64,000 nucleotides of DNA from a virus: the IMG/VR virus record IMGVR_UViG_3300046820_000975, positions 47,925 through 111,924 of that record; one strand, written 5' to 3'. A program made the position numbers and the translations under genes. Below the pieces are notes generated by a model. That model was not told the DNA's origin and searched no databases. It was given only the letters and a program-made list of their open reading frames with translations. This document shows, piece after piece, positions 1,514 to 11,677 of the stretch; the stretch's first letter is position 1, and every line of letters starts with the position of its first letter.

Positions 1514-4246
1514 ATGGCACTAGTATATAATGCAATGCAGTTAAAGAATGGGGCGAAAGCAGAGTACAACCGTATGGGTACTTTGACTCAACCTGTTCAA
1601 TTTTTGCCACGTGATGAAAAAAGTGATTCATGGGGTGGATGGAACATGGACTGGTTAGAGATGCAAGGTCTCAAACAGTTAAGACGTAATGCACGCAGAT
1701 TGTTAAAGAACTATAAATTAGCAAATGGTGTTATTGACAGAACTGACTACATTATTGAAGAAGATAATGAAATGGCAGATCTTATTGAAACCTTGACTAA
1801 AGAAGATCAAAGTGCGTTTGAATTAAAGTTTTTCCCAATTGTACCAAACGTATTAAATGTATTAACAGGAGAATTTGCTAAACGCAATGATCGCATTATT
1901 TATCGCGCTGTTGATGAAACGAGCTTCAATGAATTGTTGGAAGCAAAACGTACTATGTTGGAAGAATCGCTTGTTGCACTTGGTGAACAAAGGATGCAAG
2001 AAAACATTCAAAAGATGGGCCTTAATCCTCAAGATCAACAACAAGCACAACAGATTCAACAAATGATGTCTCCTGAGAGCATCAAGAGTTTACCAGAAAT
2101 TGAAGAGTTTTTTAAAAAGGACTATCGTTCTTTGGTAGAAGAATGGGCAACTCACCAACACAAAGTTGATGAGGAGCGCTTTTATATGAAAGAATTAGAG
2201 AATCTTGCATTCAGAGATATGCTTATTACAGATCGTGAGTTCTGGCATTTCAAGATGAATGAGGATGACTATGATATTGAGATTTGGAATCCAGTATTAA
2301 CATTCTACCACAAATCTCCTGATGCACGTTACATTTCACAATCTAACTGGGCAGGACGTATGGATCTTTTAACGTTATCTGACGTTATTGATAAGTATGG
2401 TTGGATGATGTCTGATGATCAGTTAAAGTCTTTGGAAGCTATTTATCCTGTAAAATCTGCAGGTTATATGATTCCAGGTGTACAGAATGATGGTAGTTAC
2501 TATGATCCTACACGTTCACATGAGTGGAACGTACAAGGACCATCATTAGGTATGCGTCAGTTCCTTAGCGCACGTGATACATTTGTTAATACAGGTGATG
2601 ATATTATCTTCCGCATTCTTAATGAATCAGAAGACTTGCAAGATTTAAGTAATTTGAATTTGCTACGTGTAACTACTTGTTATTGGAAGAGCCAACGTAT
2701 GGTTGGTCATCTAACTAAAGTAGATGAGGAAGGTATGTTGGAAGATATGATTGTAGATGAGAACTACAAAGTAACAGTTAAACCAATATATGACACGTCT
2801 GTGTTTAAAAAGAAATCACGTGAAACATTAGTTTCTGGTGAGCACATTGATTGGATCTGGATTAATGAAGTTTGGGGTGGTGTCAAAATTGGACCAAACA
2901 GACCAAGTTTCTATGGTAACGTTGATAACATGGGATTCTCTCCTATCTATTTAAATGTTAAACCAGTTAAGTTCCAGTTCAAAGGTGACTTTACTTTATA
3001 TGGTTGTAAGCTTCCAATTGAAGGTGCTGTATTCTCTGATCGTAATACAAAGAGTACATCATTAGTAGATAAGATGAAACCTTACCAGATTGGCTATAAT
3101 CTAGTTAATAACCAGATTGCTGATATCTTGGTAGATGAATTAGGTACTGTAATTGTACTTGATCAAAATGCATTACCACGTCACTCAATGGGTGAAGACT
3201 GGGGTAAGAACAATTTCTCAAAAGCATTTGTGGCAATGAAGAATTTCCAGATGCTTCCTTTAGATACTACAATTGCTAATACTGAAAGCGCTACTAACTT
3301 CCAACATTATCAAGTGTTGAACTTAGATCAAACTAATCGTTTGATGACACGTATTCAGTTATCTAACTACTTTAAGAGTCAGTGTTTTGAAGCTATTGGT
3401 GTTAATCCTCAACGTATGGGTACACCTATTTCACAGCAAACTGCTACTGGTGTAGAACAAGCAATGAACGCTTCTTACTCACAAACTGAGATGTACTTTG
3501 TACAACACTCAGAATACTTAATGCCACGTGTACACCAAATGCGTACAGACTTGGCACAGTACTATAACTCTAACAGACCATCTTTACGTTTACAATACGT
3601 AACTAGCTTGGATGAAAAAGTTAATTTCCAAATCAATGGTACTGAGTTACTTGCACGTGATTTAAATGTATTTGCTACAACACGTGTTAGTCAGCGTCAA
3701 GTTATGGAACAAATACGTCAACTTGCATTAAATAACAATACTGCAGGTGCTTCTATTTATGATTTGGGTAATATCATCAAAGCTGATTCATTAGCTGAGA
3801 TTACACATGTTATGAAGGGTATTGAAGAGAAGAATACAAATGCTAAGCAGCAAGAACAACAAGCAATGCAAGAGACTGAGAAAATGAAGCAAGAAGCAGA
3901 AAATCAACGTCAAGAAGCAATGCTTAAATTCCAAGCTGAACAAAAAGCATTGGATCGTGCAAATGATATCCAAGTTGCTGAAGTACGTTCTGCTGGTTAC
4001 ACTGCTATGCAAGACATGAACAAAGACAACCAATCAGATTATATTAACACACTTGAATACTTGGATAAGAAGCGCGCACGTGAAACAGATCAAGCTTTAT
4101 CACGTGACGCAGCTTTAACAAAACAAGCGTCTGAGCAACAAAAACTTGATTTGAAACGTCAAGAAATTGCATCACGCGAAAGAATTGCAGACAAGCAAGT
4201 TCAAGTTGCACGTGTGAACAAGAACAAGTACGACAAAAAAGATTAA
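1514..4246 (+). CDS. Portal protein
   Basis: This 910-residue protein is the likely dodecameric portal at the capsid vertex, through which DNA is packaged and ejected and on which the connector rings assemble. Support is position directly after TerL, the large size expected of crAss-like portals, and a mixed alpha/beta body followed from about residue 770 by a long Gln/Glu/Lys-rich coiled-coil tail. The N-terminal region has a tryptophan-rich patch (SWGGWNMDWLEMQG, about residues 37-50) ahead of basic helices. The ATG at 1514 has an A-rich, Shine-Dalgarno-poor upstream, as throughout this window. No other phage function fits this size and place. The assignment is inferred from synteny and general character, not from a catalytic motif. 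Confidence 0.82.
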   Translation: MALVYNAMQLKNGAKAEYNRMGTLTQPVQFLPRDEKSDSWGGWNMDWLEMQGLKQLRRNARRLLKNYKLANGVIDRTDYIIEEDNEMADLIETLTKEDQSAFELKFFPIVPNVLNVLTGEFAKRNDRIIYRAVDETSFNELLEAKRTMLEESLVALGEQRMQENIQKMGLNPQDQQQAQQIQQMMSPESIKSLPEIEEFFKKDYRSLVEEWATHQHKVDEERFYMKELENLAFRDMLITDREFWHFKMNEDDYDIEIWNPVLTFYHKSPDARYISQSNWAGRMDLLTLSDVIDKYGWMMSDDQLKSLEAIYPVKSAGYMIPGVQNDGSYYDPTRSHEWNVQGPSLGMRQFLSARDTFVNTGDDIIFRILNESEDLQDLSNLNLLRVTTCYWKSQRMVGHLTKVDEEGMLEDMIVDENYKVTVKPIYDTSVFKKKSRETLVSGEHIDWIWINEVWGGVKIGPNRPSFYGNVDNMGFSPIYLNVKPVKFQFKGDFTLYGCKLPIEGAVFSDRNTKSTSLVDKMKPYQIGYNLVNNQIADILVDELGTVIVLDQNALPRHSMGEDWGKNNFSKAFVAMKNFQMLPLDTTIANTESATNFQHYQVLNLDQTNRLMTRIQLSNYFKSQCFEAIGVNPQRMGTPISQQTATGVEQAMNASYSQTEMYFVQHSEYLMPRVHQMRTDLAQYYNSNRPSLRLQYVTSLDEKVNFQINGTELLARDLNVFATTRVSQRQVMEQIRQLALNNNTAGASIYDLGNIIKADSLAEITHVMKGIEEKNTNAKQQEQQAMQETEKMKQEAENQRQEAMLKFQAEQKALDRANDIQVAEVRSAGYTAMQDMNKDNQSDYINTLEYLDKKRARETDQALSRDAALTKQASEQQKLDLKRQEIASRERIADKQVQVARVNKNKYDKKD

Positions 4247-5628: not shown

Positions 5629-7275
5629 ATGTCAACACCTGTTTTAAACAACGGACTGTTCCTACGCGATACTAACTACAAGGTTAGTTCCCATGTGGAC
5701 AGCTACCACTTGGTGAACATGCTAAAGAACACTGAACCTATGGATTTAGGTCCAGTTGATCTTTGGGCAATGACCCAAAAGGTAGAAATGCCTCTTTATC
5801 AGATGGCATCATTTGGTGGTAAAAACACCATTTTAGTAGACAACGCTCGTGGCGAGTACAAATGGCAAACTCCTATCGTACAGGATTTACCTTACATCGT
5901 TGAAGACGTTGAACCTACAAACACTACACTTGGTATTGATGGTACTACCTTCAAAATCAAATTAAACAAGCGTGCTTTTGGTCACGGTGATATCATCACT
6001 TATGACAAGTACAAGGGATTGGAAATGTACATCGTTGCTGATGACATTCTTCCTGGCGCTGATGGATTTATCTACACTGTTCAGTTGGTTAACAACAACA
6101 GTACTGCTTCTTTGGATAAGAAGTATTTGAAACCTGGTACTAAGTTCTTCCGTAAAGGTTCTGCTCGTGGTGAATACGGTGAGCGTTTCTCTGACATTGG
6201 AGAATTGAACGCTGGTTTCCGTGAGTACTACAACTTTGTTGGTGGTGCTGAAGCTCACGTTCACTATTCAGTATCTTCTCGTGCAGAGTTGATGATGAAA
6301 GGTGGTTTGAATGCTGATGGTACAGTTCCTGTAACTGAGATCTGGCGTTCATTTGACTCAAATCTTGCTAACGATCCTTCATTGACTAACATTGATGCGA
6401 TGGTTAACAAAATGGGTAAAGACTACATCAAGAAAGCTTATGACAATGGTACATTGACTCGTACGTTCTTGACAAAGATGGAAGCTGCTCACTTGAGCAA
6501 AGTTGCTAATGACATCGAAACTTACTTAATGTGGGGACAAGGTGGAAAGATTAAGCAAGATGGTCCAGATGATATCCGCTTGTCAGTGGGTCTTTGGGGT
6601 CAATTGGATAACTCTTTCAAACGTGTTTACAATAAGTCTGGTTTCAGTCTTGAGTTGTTCCGTTCTGAGATCTTCAACTTCTACAATGGTAAGGTTGAAT
6701 TAAAAGGACCAGATCCTCAACGTCAGATCATTGTACAAACTGGTATGGCTGGTATGCGTTTGATCAACGAAGCAATCAAGAAGGAAGCTTTCACAGCTAA
6801 CTTAGGTGGTGGTCTTATCGCAAACATGGATAAATCAGGTGTTGGTGCTATTTCTGGTAACAACTCTATGGATTTGAACTTTGGTTTTGCGTTCACTAGC
6901 TACACAATTCCATTCTTAGCTAACGTTAAGTTTGTATTGAACCCAGCTTTTGATAACGTTCATACCAACGATATTGAGAATCCAATCATTGATGGATATC
7001 CATTAAGCTCTTACAACTTCATCGTGTTTGATATCACTGATAACACAAATGACAACATTTACTTGTTGAAATTGAAGTGGGATAGCGAAATGAGATGGTT
7101 CTACCAAAACGGTACTATGGATTACATGGGACGTACGCAAGGTTTCGCTTCTAGTGGAAACTTCAACGGATACCGCGTATTCATGACACAAACAATGCCT
7201 TCTATCTGGGTTAAAGATCCAACGAAAGTATTGAAGATCGTTATGCGTAACCCAATCACTGGTGGTTCATTCTAA
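5629..7275 (+). CDS. Major capsid protein (HK97-fold expected)
   Basis: This 548-residue protein should form the icosahedral shell. Evidence is its position after portal and scaffold, a length typical of crAss-like capsid proteins, an even composition without low complexity, and markedly more C-ending codons (for example ttc, aac, tac) than its neighbours, as expected for the most highly expressed late gene. The N-terminal region (residues 1-100) reads like the N-arm/E-loop part of this family, with the segment MPLYQMASFGGKN about residue 58. An intrinsic terminator lies 68 bases downstream, so a transcript ending here could give capsid-specific abundance. The start follows an A-rich leader (AAATAAACAATTACT) typical of Bacteroidota. 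Identification is by synteny and sequence character. Confidence 0.82.
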   Translation: MSTPVLNNGLFLRDTNYKVSSHVDSYHLVNMLKNTEPMDLGPVDLWAMTQKVEMPLYQMASFGGKNTILVDNARGEYKWQTPIVQDLPYIVEDVEPTNTTLGIDGTTFKIKLNKRAFGHGDIITYDKYKGLEMYIVADDILPGADGFIYTVQLVNNNSTASLDKKYLKPGTKFFRKGSARGEYGERFSDIGELNAGFREYYNFVGGAEAHVHYSVSSRAELMMKGGLNADGTVPVTEIWRSFDSNLANDPSLTNIDAMVNKMGKDYIKKAYDNGTLTRTFLTKMEAAHLSKVANDIETYLMWGQGGKIKQDGPDDIRLSVGLWGQLDNSFKRVYNKSGFSLELFRSEIFNFYNGKVELKGPDPQRQIIVQTGMAGMRLINEAIKKEAFTANLGGGLIANMDKSGVGAISGNNSMDLNFGFAFTSYTIPFLANVKFVLNPAFDNVHTNDIENPIIDGYPLSSYNFIVFDITDNTNDNIYLLKLKWDSEMRWFYQNGTMDYMGRTQGFASSGNFNGYRVFMTQTMPSIWVKDPTKVLKIVMRNPITGGSF

Positions 7276-7483: not shown

Positions 7484-8497
7484 ATGGAAGTAACAATGAT
7501 TGAGAAGCACAATTCTCTAAAAAGAAATGCTAGTATTAGCATTCGCCCTTATGTAGACAATACCTATGCAAACATGGGATTGGAACGCTACAACATGACG
7601 CTCTTTGAAGGATGTTTTCACGAAGAACCACTTATGTGTCTTGAAAACAATGGTATCAGACGTTACGTTACAGGTCTTAATGAGTTCGCACCAGAACTTA
7701 AAGATTTGGATAATGATGAAAGAGAAGCTGCAATTAAGCAGATACGTATTACAGTTGCGCAATTAGAAAAAGAATTAGCGTCAAATGTGATTGATCCAAA
7801 TGATAATGAGTTTTGGAATAAAGTTAAATTGCTACGTCCTGACAATGCAGAATTCTGGGAAAAGATTGTTTTGCGTTTAGGTAATGATCCTGTGTTTTTG
7901 GATCCTGCTAAAGATCCTTATGATCTTATCAAGATGAAAGCAATTGAAGCAGGTGGATTTTCTATGATTGCGAAATCAATGGAAGAGGCACGCAGAATTA
8001 CTGGTTCTAAATTCTATTTAGATAAGTTTGAAGAAACTGCTCAAATTCGTACTGAAGTTAAGAAGTTGCGTAACAAAGCTCTTGCAGAATTGCAGAAGTT
8101 GTTTGATAAAAATCAAAACAAGTTATTCTACGTTTGTAAGATTGTTGATCCAAATTCAACACAGTATCGTAAAACTACACCATCAGATATCATGTATGAT
8201 AACATGGATAAATATATCAATGGTGAAGGAGTAGATAAGGATAAAAAGAAAACAGCACAACGTTTCTTAGATGTTGCAAATCTAGACATGGAAACATTAA
8301 AGATGCGCGCAATCGTAAAAGATGCAAACTTCTACAAGTTAATTGCAACACGTGGTGATGGTTTTATTTATCACATGAAGAGTGCTACAATGGTAGGTAA
8401 AAACCCATCAGATGTAGTAGAGTATTTGAAAAATCCACTTAATGAGGAGATCTTAATGGATCTTACAAAGAATGTGGAGAAAATGTGGAACCAATAA
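7484..8497 (+). CDS. Structural protein of unknown function downstream of the capsid gene
   Basis: I do not recognise this 337-residue protein by motif. The frame could open at a TTG at 7445, but that places 13 extra residues inside the end of the structured leader; ATG 7484 (reading MEVTMIEKH) is the better start, with ATG 7496 as an alternative. The protein is soluble, helix-rich and charged, with no signal peptide, membrane segment or cysteine cluster. Its position, between the capsid gene and a connector-like gene, suggests a head-completion or head-associated role. Its stop overlaps the first hairpin of the twin repeat at 8497-8556. Function is inferred from context alone. Confidence 0.7.
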   Translation: MEVTMIEKHNSLKRNASISIRPYVDNTYANMGLERYNMTLFEGCFHEEPLMCLENNGIRRYVTGLNEFAPELKDLDNDEREAAIKQIRITVAQLEKELASNVIDPNDNEFWNKVKLLRPDNAEFWEKIVLRLGNDPVFLDPAKDPYDLIKMKAIEAGGFSMIAKSMEEARRITGSKFYLDKFEETAQIRTEVKKLRNKALAELQKLFDKNQNKLFYVCKIVDPNSTQYRKTTPSDIMYDNMDKYINGEGVDKDKKKTAQRFLDVANLDMETLKMRAIVKDANFYKLIATRGDGFIYHMKSATMVGKNPSDVVEYLKNPLNEEILMDLTKNVEKMWNQ

Positions 8498-8556
8498 AAT
8501 TATACCTGAGCGGGTATAATTTGATTAGAAATACTTAAATTATACCCTAACGGGTA
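8497..8556 (+). repeat. Twin direct repeat AAATTATACC-N4-CGGGTA, 40 bp apart
   Basis: AAATTATACC-N4-CGGGTA occurs at 8497-8516 and again at 8537-8556, exactly 40 bp apart and identical outside the N4. Each copy can fold: the first as a perfect 10-bp stem (8497-8506 with 8513-8522, loop TGAGCG), the second as a 5-bp stem (TACCC 8543-8547 / GGGTA 8552-8556). The second ends 7 bases before the ATG at 8564 and could mask that start. Options are an operator, paired RNA hairpins for a translational repressor, or a weak terminator followed by an initiation control element. Confidence 0.6.
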
Positions 8557-8563
8557 CACGCAT

Positions 8564-9262
8564 ATGAACAACAACCTATTACAAATCAAGTTTAAAGAAC
8601 GCTTAAACAAATTAGCGTCTTTGGATTATGACAACATTGAATGTTGGCAGATTACTGAAGCTTTCAATAAAGCTCAGCTAGAATGGGTACGTCGTCAAGT
8701 TAATGGTATTAACCAGTCAAAAGCAGGTGATGAATCAACAGACATGAAGATTGATGATTTGCAAATACTTCTGAAATCAGATATATTGACAACTGCTAAA
8801 TACCCAACTTACAATGAGACTGAGTTTTTACCAGCTGATTATTTATACTTTAAACGTATAGGTGCAGAAGCAAAAACTGAATGTTGTCCTAATCGTGCAG
8901 TAATTGCTTATTTAGCTGCTGAAGCAGACGTAGACAATTTATTAGCTGATGTATTACGTGGTCCAAGTGCTGAATGGGGTGAAACATTTGCTACATTTAT
9001 AGGCAACAGAGTACGTATTTACACAAATGGTAAGTTTGATATTGAAAATGCTAAGTTAACTTATTATCGCAAACCACGTCCAATCAGCTTTTATGGTTGT
9101 ATGGATATTGCTACAAACACATTATCAGCAAATGTTGAGTGTGAATTTAAAGATGATATAGTTGAGTTAATTATTGATGATGCTGTAAGTATTATTGCTG
9201 GTGATATTGAAAGTTCTAACCAGTATTCACGTAACAAAACAAATTCAAATCTTAATACATAA
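8564..9262 (+). CDS. Connector / ring-type head-tail joining protein (putative)
   Basis: This 232-residue protein resembles the adaptor or ring proteins that sit under the portal in crAss-like podoviruses. The features behind this are a central FLPADYLYFKRIG segment (about residues 87-99), followed by a beta-rich region and a C-terminal helix with acidic residues (DDIVELIIDDAVSIIAGDIES, about residues 201-221). The LPADY-then-beta-then-helix plan recurs in the 375-residue protein at 17993-19120 (LPVDFY), supporting a shared connector family. It overlaps the ferritin start by one base (TAATG), so the two are probably translationally coupled. No enzyme motif is present. The exact ring position cannot be told from sequence. 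Confidence 0.55.
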   Translation: MNNNLLQIKFKERLNKLASLDYDNIECWQITEAFNKAQLEWVRRQVNGINQSKAGDESTDMKIDDLQILLKSDILTTAKYPTYNETEFLPADYLYFKRIGAEAKTECCPNRAVIAYLAAEADVDNLLADVLRGPSAEWGETFATFIGNRVRIYTNGKFDIENAKLTYYRKPRPISFYGCMDIATNTLSANVECEFKDDIVELIIDDAVSIIAGDIESSNQYSRNKTNSNLNT

Positions 9263-9858
9263 TGGAACAGTCAAGCAATGGCAATATGCTAAAACGTACA
9301 TTAGCGACTCCTGTTAAAAGCACTGCACCAACAGTTGCTCCTGGAGTTAAAGCACCATCAATAAAAGGTAAAAACATTTTATTATCTGATGAGTGCGTAT
9401 CTTATCTTAACTATCGCATTGAACAAGAAGAGTATTCTTCAAGAATATATCTTGCAATGTCTATGTGGTTAAACAACAATGGTTACACTAATGCTGCTGC
9501 ATTGTGGAAAAAATATTCAAATGAAGAATTAGCACATGCTGATTGGGCGCGTGAATATTTGTTAGCAATGGGTGTACAACCAATGACTCCAAGATTGGAT
9601 GCTCCAATTCAAGAGTTTTCTGGTTTACCACAAATCATCCATGATTCTTACGATCATGAGATTGTTGTAACTAAACAAGTTAAAGATCTAGCTACTGATG
9701 CTTTTAAGAAAGGTGATCACATGTTATATGAGTTAACCTTGAAATACTTGAAAGAACAAGTAGAAGAGCATGACAAAATGCAGAACTGGGTTGATCAATT
9801 AAATGCTTTTGGTACTGACAAAGTAGCATTACGTTTACTTGACAATGAAATGGGATAA
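9262..9858 (+). CDS. Non-haem ferritin with N-terminal extension
   Basis: This 198-residue protein is a ferritin of the bacterial FtnA type: a four-helix bundle that oxidises Fe(II) at a di-iron centre and stores ferric mineral in a 24-mer shell. Aligned by eye to E. coli FtnA, all ferroxidase positions are kept: Glu56 (in EEYSS), Glu89 and His92 (in NEELAH), Glu133 (in DHE), and Gln166 and Glu169 (in EQVEEH). The core covers about residues 40-198, near the usual FtnA length. Ahead of it is a 38-residue Ser/Thr/Pro/Lys-rich extension absent from FtnA, which could be a tether or packaging tag. It starts on the last base of the connector stop codon and is followed by leader element B, so it sits inside the virion transcription unit. 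Its presence in the virion is an inference. Confidence 0.9.
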   Translation: MEQSSNGNMLKRTLATPVKSTAPTVAPGVKAPSIKGKNILLSDECVSYLNYRIEQEEYSSRIYLAMSMWLNNNGYTNAAALWKKYSNEELAHADWAREYLLAMGVQPMTPRLDAPIQEFSGLPQIIHDSYDHEIVVTKQVKDLATDAFKKGDHMLYELTLKYLKEQVEEHDKMQNWVDQLNAFGTDKVALRLLDNEMG

Positions 9859-9961: not shown

Positions 9962-11677
9962 ATGGCTTATTTTCCTCACGCGTACCAGAAGATGCTGGTA
10001 ACAAAAGATGGCACCGATGCTTCAGGCTTCATCGTAGGTGCAGGTACAGCTACATCTGCTTTGACTTATGGTCAGTTGGCACTTGTTAGCGCTACCACTA
10101 ACACAAGCTTGGCTTTGTCTTCAGGTACTTCTTACACAGGTTCACCATTGGTGTACTTGGCACAAGGTAGCTACCACTCAGTAGACAAAATTGGACCTTA
10201 TCATGGAGGTTACAAAGAAACTGTTAAATCTAAGGGTATCAATCCTAAGTATGTTAGCGCTTTCTACGTTACACAACCAACTAGTCCAGTGAACGAAGTA
10301 ATGAACATTAGTTACACTTACTCTAGTTCATGTCCAGTTGTTTGTAACAAAACGTATCGTTTGCGTCTTGACATCAAGGGTTCTCCTGCTCTTCGTTTCT
10401 TGACACACAATGCTTACTTTACATTGGATGCTAACTCTGGTTGTTGCGATTCTTCAAACAGTGCAATTGATCCAAATTATGTAATGTTACAATGGGCAGA
10501 ACGTATTGCTACTTACAACACTTTGAAAGACTTTGTAATGCCAATCGTTTGGAGTCGTGTTAAAGTATCTGGTACAGCTGCTACTGCTTCTGCTACTGCT
10601 GCTTCTGCATTGACTATGACTCGCGATGGTATCTATGCTGGTGATAAAGTTATCTTTACTCCAACTACTGCTACTTCAGCTACAAGTTCAACAATTGCTG
10701 GTAACACTTTCACAGTTGGTACTGCTACTAACACTGTATTCTCTGTAGGTCAAACTATCACAGGTACTGGTGTTGCTGCTGGAACTGTTATTACTGCATT
10801 AGTTTCTGGTGGTGGTGGAACAGGTTCTGTATTCACAGTTAACATTGCACAGACTGTTTCTTCAACAACTATTTCTTCTACATCTCCTGTTACTGCTTTT
10901 GTAAGTTCTTCTTACACAAATACAACTGGTTCTGGTGCTGTTGCTTTAGTTGCTGCTACTAACTTGTACACTCCAAGTGCTACAACAATTAGTGCATTTA
11001 CAACTACTACAATCACTCCTGCTGTTTACCACAAAGTAAACACTTCTTTGGTTAATGGTACTTATTTGTATGATGCTACTTTGAACCCTTCTGGTTACCA
11101 ACCAATCACTGGTTCTGCTGTTGCAACTGCAAATCCTGAATCATTTATGGAATTAGTAACTGCTTATGTTGAAACACAATTTGGTAATGCTTCTTTTTAC
11201 CCAACTGACCACTTTGAATTACAACCTTTAGAACTTTATGCTTCTATGTTAGACAGTGAAGGTAACGTTTGTGTTACTTCATGTTTTGTTCCTACAGAAA
11301 AACAACAAAGTTTGCAAGGTCGTGGTTTTGGTGAACCATTAGTTCGTGAATTGATTCTTGCTAAACGCTACCAACAAGAACCATTCCAATTGGATCCACG
11401 TTTACGTGAAGTATTGAACGATACTACATTGTCTTATGTTGATGCAGCTGGTAACATTGTTAACGGTGAGATTAGTCGTGCAGCTAAATACTATGTATAT
11501 AACATTTTACACAGTGTTCCTCGCAAAGCTAACCCAAGTGGTACAATGGATAGTGATCAATATCTTATCAAGATTGTTACTCCTGCTCGTAACACTGCGT
11601 TTGAGCAAGGTTTCATCAAGATGTTGAATGACTTTGGTAACTACGATTGCGGTACTGCTATCACAGTAACTGTTTAA
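9962..11677 (+). CDS. Abundant structural protein (candidate capsid auxiliary/decoration protein)
   Basis: This 571-residue protein is beta-rich and sits alone between leader element B and a strong terminator, so it is probably expressed separately at high level. Residues about 200-330 are a Thr/Ser/Ala/Gly-rich insertion. It contains a beta repeat resembling a module common in phage structural proteins (pattern VGQTITGTGVAAGTVI, about residues 260-275, then SGGGGTGSVFTV). N-terminal and C-terminal regions have ordinary composition, with a cysteine cluster (about residues 160-161, SGCCD) and a C-terminus ending in TAITVTV. High-copy status suggests a head decoration or auxiliary capsid role, but a tail component is possible. 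No enzymatic motif is visible. Confidence 0.65.
   Translation: MAYFPHAYQKMLVTKDGTDASGFIVGAGTATSALTYGQLALVSATTNTSLALSSGTSYTGSPLVYLAQGSYHSVDKIGPYHGGYKETVKSKGINPKYVSAFYVTQPTSPVNEVMNISYTYSSSCPVVCNKTYRLRLDIKGSPALRFLTHNAYFTLDANSGCCDSSNSAIDPNYVMLQWAERIATYNTLKDFVMPIVWSRVKVSGTAATASATAASALTMTRDGIYAGDKVIFTPTTATSATSSTIAGNTFTVGTATNTVFSVGQTITGTGVAAGTVITALVSGGGGTGSVFTVNIAQTVSSTTISSTSPVTAFVSSSYTNTTGSGAVALVAATNLYTPSATTISAFTTTTITPAVYHKVNTSLVNGTYLYDATLNPSGYQPITGSAVATANPESFMELVTAYVETQFGNASFYPTDHFELQPLELYASMLDSEGNVCVTSCFVPTEKQQSLQGRGFGEPLVRELILAKRYQQEPFQLDPRLREVLNDTTLSYVDAAGNIVNGEISRAAKYYVYNILHSVPRKANPSGTMDSDQYLIKIVTPARNTAFEQGFIKMLNDFGNYDCGTAITVTV

Follow-up and report, generated by a model that had tools for sequence, protein, structure and literature searches.

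The window analysed here is a 64-kb stretch, part of a virus record of 111,924 bases. Judged by its sequence markers the phage is crAss-like, since the capsid, portal and ring proteins of the Crassvirales are present. The features considered below are:

1514-4246, + strand: portal protein (phrog_6547, 1.4e-89)
5629-7275, + strand: crAss-like major capsid protein (PF23898 Crass_capsid, 1.8e-34)
8490-8563, + strand: strong RNA hairpin between the preceding gene and the ring-ferritin pair (-22 kcal/mol, z -5.5)
8564-9262, + strand: tail ring protein of the crAss R3/R4 type (PF25710, 5.8e-6; phrog_29507, 1.2e-8; phrog_15924, 2e-9)
9262-9858, + strand: FtnA-type (bacterial non-heme) ferritin of 198 aa (PF00210 over residues 48-181, 2.8e-22)
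9262-9375, + strand: 38-residue N-terminal extension of the ferritin, i.e. a tag and a low-complexity linker, disordered and of net charge +5 (from pLDDT, charge and tag statistics)
9289-9300, + strand: tag motif LKRT, residues 10-13, common to ring-slot DUF5856 (from motif counts)
9962-11677, + strand: fibre-like virion gene of 571 aa, closing the slot downstream (phrog_38233 tail fibre, 3e-5, over a partial stretch)

The interval between the ring gene and the fibre-like gene is referred to as the ring slot. The ring gene, whose CrAss_Ring_3_4 match (5.8e-6) is slightly short of the curated cut-off, also matches virion PHROGs. Its stop codon overlaps the ferritin start codon by one base (TAATG), which indicates translational coupling. 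Around this pair of genes promoter-like matches occur at chance level only, and the flanks hold no clear signal besides the upstream hairpin, which could be a terminator or a processing site. In a second crAss-like lineage it is the homologue of the window's portal gene that lies next to the slot on its upstream side. A contig distinct from the window (L001) carries a copy 100% identical to this ferritin, with identical neighbours.

The window also holds a large terminase ORF (97-1488; PHROG match 1.6e-47). It aligns solely with positions 315-732 of a 758-position profile, so that the N-terminal half lies outside the ORF (split gene, intron or frameshift). By size and position alone, two ORFs (4442 and 1992 aa) are candidate giant genes of the virion RNA-polymerase type.

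Fold and ferroxidase centre of the ferritin

Ferritins are the textbook proteins of iron storage in cells. Among PDB sequences the window protein best matches the ferritin of V. cholerae (3qz3, 7e-22) and FtnA of E. coli (1eum, 5e-20). Its AlphaFold2 model (mean pLDDT 84.8, below 50 for residues 1-25) is a four-helix bundle (43-72, 76-102, 122-149 and 153-183) with a short fifth helix (187-197), and Foldseek superposes it on 3qz3 and 1eum with an rmsd of 0.9-1.0 Å over about 157 residues. At the ferroxidase centre E56, Y63, E89, H92, E133, E165, Q166, E168 and E169 are the residues found in EcFtnA and are invariant in 74 distinct phage homologs; the tenth position checked, E88, is E, G or D among them. 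The dN/dS between pairs of homologs is 0.02-0.18, i.e. the gene is under purifying selection, and on these values we rejected a pseudogene.

The protein matches the Ferritin and phrog_16594 profiles. It has no match to DUF5856/phrog_858, a family described below, and the profile search found no DUF5856 in G000; an encapsulin-type C-terminal targeting extension is also absent from the protein. The core is an ordinary FtnA-type ferritin, and the residues conserved in its sequence point to a catalytically competent enzyme of a phage-specific clade. The original prediction had described an intact 198-residue ferritin, with ligands E56, E89, H92, E133, Q166 and E169, coupled by one base to a connector gene. 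All these ligands align with EcFtnA, the model superposes on FtnA-type structures and the coupling is there, the upstream gene being a crAss-like tail-ring gene.

Ring and portal slots in crAss-like phages

Two scans of viral contigs placed the ferritin in about 100 loci/contigs. In lineage A 47 distinct ferritins occupy the ring slot, after the ring gene and before the fibre-like gene where the locus extends far enough. In lineage B, which is crAss-like as well but far more remote (about 24% identity in the portal), 16 distinct ferritins lie in the portal-scaffold-capsid part, referred to as the portal slot. Others follow a muzzle gene (L035, L036) or a virion structural protein of about 2,500 aa (L039, with L040 and L041 arranged similarly), lie 2.5-3 kb upstream of terL (L011, L018) or precede a head maturation protease (L037). 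Phage ferritins are almost always found within virion modules, and most of the other placements are in or near them too. The location in a virion operon, proposed from the window alone, is therefore kept across many phages. About 100 contigs with conserved neighbours also lead us to reject contamination or an insertion in a single assembly. In L037 the ferritin (8004-8501) overlaps a NUDIX/portal-like/ParB ORF, and this locus has no match to the window's crAss-like proteins.

In the tree the phage ferritins form one clade (SH-aLRT 100) separate from 31 bacterial ferritins; its inner branches are moderately supported because the tree came from a quick search. A recent acquisition from the host is unsupported by this topology. 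The only clear cellular member of the clade is a chromosomal copy of Maribacter: in L103 (3013-3522) it lies in a chromosome contig of Maribacter orientalis and is possibly a phage remnant or a transfer to the host. One scan of genome contigs gave only two cellular relatives. A 5.5-kb scaffold binned as Tissierellales (L102 / L286), with a phage-clade ferritin 69% identical to that of the window, is probably a misbinned phage contig. Some matches labelled as Staphylococcus phage are weak, unannotated and possibly host DNA.

The content of the slot was determined on loci chosen by capsid similarity, not by the presence of ferritin. Among 56 resolved ring slots DUF5856 alone occupies 51, ferritin alone three, both proteins one and neither one. 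Ferritin is the exception (4/56), i.e. an accessory gene, and thus not essential for particles. The usual ring-slot protein, of about 126-159 aa, is DUF5856/phrog_858; the order ring-DUF5856-fibre is found in 94 distinct loci, and the fibre-like gene comes next after the slot in these as well as in nearly all ring-slot ferritin loci reaching that far. Conversely, of 33 ferritin-bearing records searched two have a DUF5856 above threshold, directly beside the ferritin in both cases.

The DUF5856 profile matches HP-NAP and other Dps of the PDB (4e-7). Its His, His, Asp and Glu align with ligands of the Dps centre and are invariant, while the fifth Dps ligand is not conserved. The DUF5856 model (pLDDT 89.9) has Dps as its top Foldseek match, a weak one (E 5e-3). 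Taken together, the phrog_858 assignment, the HP-NAP/Dps profile match and this weak structural match suggest that the slot is normally occupied by a Dps-like protein.

The portal slot of lineage B contains ferritin alone (L271), DUF5856 alone (L267, L278, L279), both (L266, L084, L002) or nothing (L273, L275, L277). Ferritin thus replaces the Dps-like protein in the slot or stands in tandem with it. L014 and L267 share about 99% identity on either side, and the ferritin is what distinguishes them; a duplication of roughly 30 bases of the DUF5856 start flanks its insertion. In L002, L090, L093 and L097 more unannotated ORFs (69-919 aa) lie between the portal and scaffold genes, beside the portal-slot ferritin; the portal slot may take other accessory genes.

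As in lineage B, DUF5856 also directly follows the portal gene in two P22-like phages, here with a 1-base overlap (L265, Phage DSL-LC05, 7998-8360; L284, MW202483, 5998-6360). It is present in T4-like phages (rI.-1), and in phage P19250A it adjoins the holin gene; given these last two contexts, the family is not tied to virions.

The N-terminal tag common to two cores

The extension of the window ferritin is real: past codon 9 the ferritin core is reached before any further ATG, GTG or TTG, which limits a possible trimming to 8 residues. The extensions of ring-slot ferritins have 14-48 residues (median 35). After inspection of the sequences we picked a motif, hydrophobic-x-Arg-Pro/Thr/Asp and similar, most often LKR, within the first 22 residues; the exact frequencies are therefore descriptive. 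It is present in 41/47 ring-slot ferritins and in 90/98 ring-slot DUF5856, and in none of the 26 ferritins located elsewhere. Most other locus proteins have it in 0-4% of cases, p7445 in 14% and p15373 in both of its two sequences.

Ferritin tags are closer to the tags of DUF5856 in phages whose ring gene is most similar than to those in other phages (excess 4.28 versus 0.01 ± 0.76, 0/2000 permutations, a figure that relatedness among loci makes optimistic). Lineage B has tags of its own: MALDINK is carried by both proteins of L084 and by the DUF5856 of L278/L319, and MEVPK by the ferritin of L030/L034 and the DUF5856 of L323. None of 1000 random sets matches the similarity of portal-slot tags between the two cores (tags listed by hand). 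The N-terminal tag goes with the slot and the lineage rather than with the core: proteins encoded behind the ring gene have LKR(P/T), those behind the portal gene MALDIN or MEVPK. The extension, which the original prediction had offered as a possible targeting tag, does behave like one.

L133 and L331-L341 have in their ring slots a DUF5856 subfamily akin to the lineage B type, and there it bears the ring-slot tag TIKR(P). The portal-slot ferritins of L002/L013 and L084 fall inside the ring-slot clade, yet they carry the portal-slot tag MALDI(N/A), and a single clade of all portal-slot ferritins is rejected (p 0.015). The DNAs of L061 (ferritin) and L234 (DUF5856) are 95% identical from the ring gene through the first nine codons (MEKNRMLKR in L061); the cores differ after codon 9 and identity resumes 25-40 bases past the stops. 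The codons of the motif vary synonymously. Thus the core has been exchanged and the tag kept, although this retention could partly reflect where recombination broke. A tag acting as a nucleotide-level element is disfavoured by the synonymous variation and by the variants IPRP, LQRP and LKRP.

Proposed function and comparison with known systems

We lean towards the following prediction, which we hold to be somewhat better than an even proposition: the ferritin is a modular, tag-addressed ferroxidase cage made in virion assembly, and it takes the place of the Dps-like protein. The data suggest that the phage directs an iron-handling cage to a particular site while its particles are being assembled. 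Ferritin and DUF5856 would both form cages (24-mer or 12-mer) with their N-termini outward, thus displaying many copies of the tag. The tag would attach the cage to a partner specific to the lineage, situated in the ring, portal or capsid region of the virion under assembly. The docked cage, cargo or transient passenger, would oxidise and sequester Fe(II) using O2 or H2O2; the removal of Fe(II) would limit Fenton damage to viral DNA or to the particle during packing or storage. We infer that the ferritin is in the particle. A ferritin 24-mer measures about 12 nm, too big for the tail channel, so its injection as a cage is unlikely. The virions of PhiCrAss001 hold large cargo in capsid and tail (PMC10172136), which makes a ferritin cargo plausible. 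The crassvirus phi14:2, with virion proteins annotated by MS, has neither ferritin nor DUF5856, and no Bacteroides phage, e.g. PhiCrAss001, is among the matches of the homologue search.

A more specific version seems to us possible, though on balance doubtful: crAss-like capsids would load a ferritin-superfamily cage via a short N-terminal address peptide, the viral equivalent of cargo loading by encapsulins, and recombination behind the tag would swap the core (Dps-like or true ferritin) between phages.

The ferritin, or the Dps-like protein, might instead be a late cytosolic enzyme that manages iron and oxidants in the infected cell. The virion operon would then be merely a late transcription unit, and the tag would address a host or replication factor or tune translation. 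The Dps and catalase of 'Gratiaviridae' phages are read in this manner in PMC8008677, and both the accessory distribution of the ferritin and the DUF5856 located outside virion modules in other phages would fit. Against it, the recurrent placement, in contexts unrelated to one another, by ring, portal, muzzle or head-protease genes suggests a structural or assembly partner, as do lineage-specific tags common to two cores. We consider this explanation rather unlikely.

The basic extension might also let the cage bind DNA like Dps, coating or protecting the genome before packaging. The Dps of E. coli has a basic N-terminal tail with which it binds DNA, and the slot partner is itself Dps-like. 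Every ring-slot ferritin extension has a net positive charge (+1 to +6), that of the window included. However, the tails of DUF5856 have little basic charge (-2 to +3), the portal-slot tags, MALDIN for instance, are close to neutral, and the conserved element is a short motif, not a general charge. DNA binding by the tail thus appears improbable.

An iron-loaded virion part or a device of iron mimicry, in line with the tail iron cited in the original prediction, would suit a ferritin adjoining a tail ring gene, but it is very improbable: the slot protein is mostly Dps-like and is portal-linked in the other lineage, there is no sign of exposure at the tail tip, and a cage of the usual ferritin size exceeds the tail-barrel volume of PhiCrAss001 given in PMC10172136. 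That the slot usually holds a Dps-like DUF5856 with the same tag points to ferroxidase or DNA-protection chemistry, not to iron piracy.

Phage-encoded Dps is already known, as PMC8008677 reports, and Dps-type annotations exist in many T4-like phages. In the open-access literature we found no ferritin in crAss-like phages, no ferritin/DUF5856 slot, no shared tag and no mention of DUF5856; the papers naming both ferritin and crAss-like phages are gut-virome surveys, and PMC8008677 treats the Dps and catalase of another family. If the tag-addressed cage is real, a conserved ferritin in the crAss-like assembly cluster would tie the control of iron and oxidants to virion assembly. The natural swap of cores behind a constant tag would provide a testable address peptide, possibly useful for loading phage particles with proteins. 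The slot would also hint at what DUF5856 does; this protein of unknown role, widespread among phages, is portal-adjacent in P22-like phages too.

Compared with FtnA (E. coli 1eum, V. cholerae 3qz3) the window ferritin has the same fold and core length, all A/B/C-site residues checked, and about 29-31% identity over the fold alignment. Like FtnA it resembles the Pfam and PRK10304 profiles, in the latter case with a score under the equivalog cut-off. It differs from FtnA by its separate phage clade, its N-terminal tag and linker and its location in a virion operon.

The 'Gratiaviridae' gut phages likewise encode ferritin-superfamily enzymes tied to oxidative stress (Dps and Mn-catalase); these are different phages, and the accessible part of PMC8008677 describes no virion slot, tag or ferritin swap. 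PhiCrAss001 shows that the capsid and tail of crAss-like virions store cargo encoded by the virus, the known cargo being large ejection/RNA-polymerase proteins, with no ferritin or Dps mentioned in the accessible part of PMC10172136.

Dps / HP-NAP and phage DUF5856 (phrog_858; rI.-1 of T4-like phages) belong to the same superfamily as the window ferritin. DUF5856 has the genomic slot and the tags in common with it, and presumably a chemistry of the same kind. DUF5856 is shorter, has four helices and carries putative ligands of the Dps type, whereas the window protein is FtnA-type, and the two are kin at the superfamily level alone.

The closest analogy for the address itself is given by EncFtn and IMEF of encapsulins, ferritin-superfamily cargo directed by a short peptide to an HK97-fold shell. 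The targeting peptides of encapsulins are mostly C-terminal, with the consensus L(F)xV(I)xxL(I) (PMC11202242). In contrast, the tag of the window ferritin is N-terminal and has another motif, and its binding to a shell is putative.
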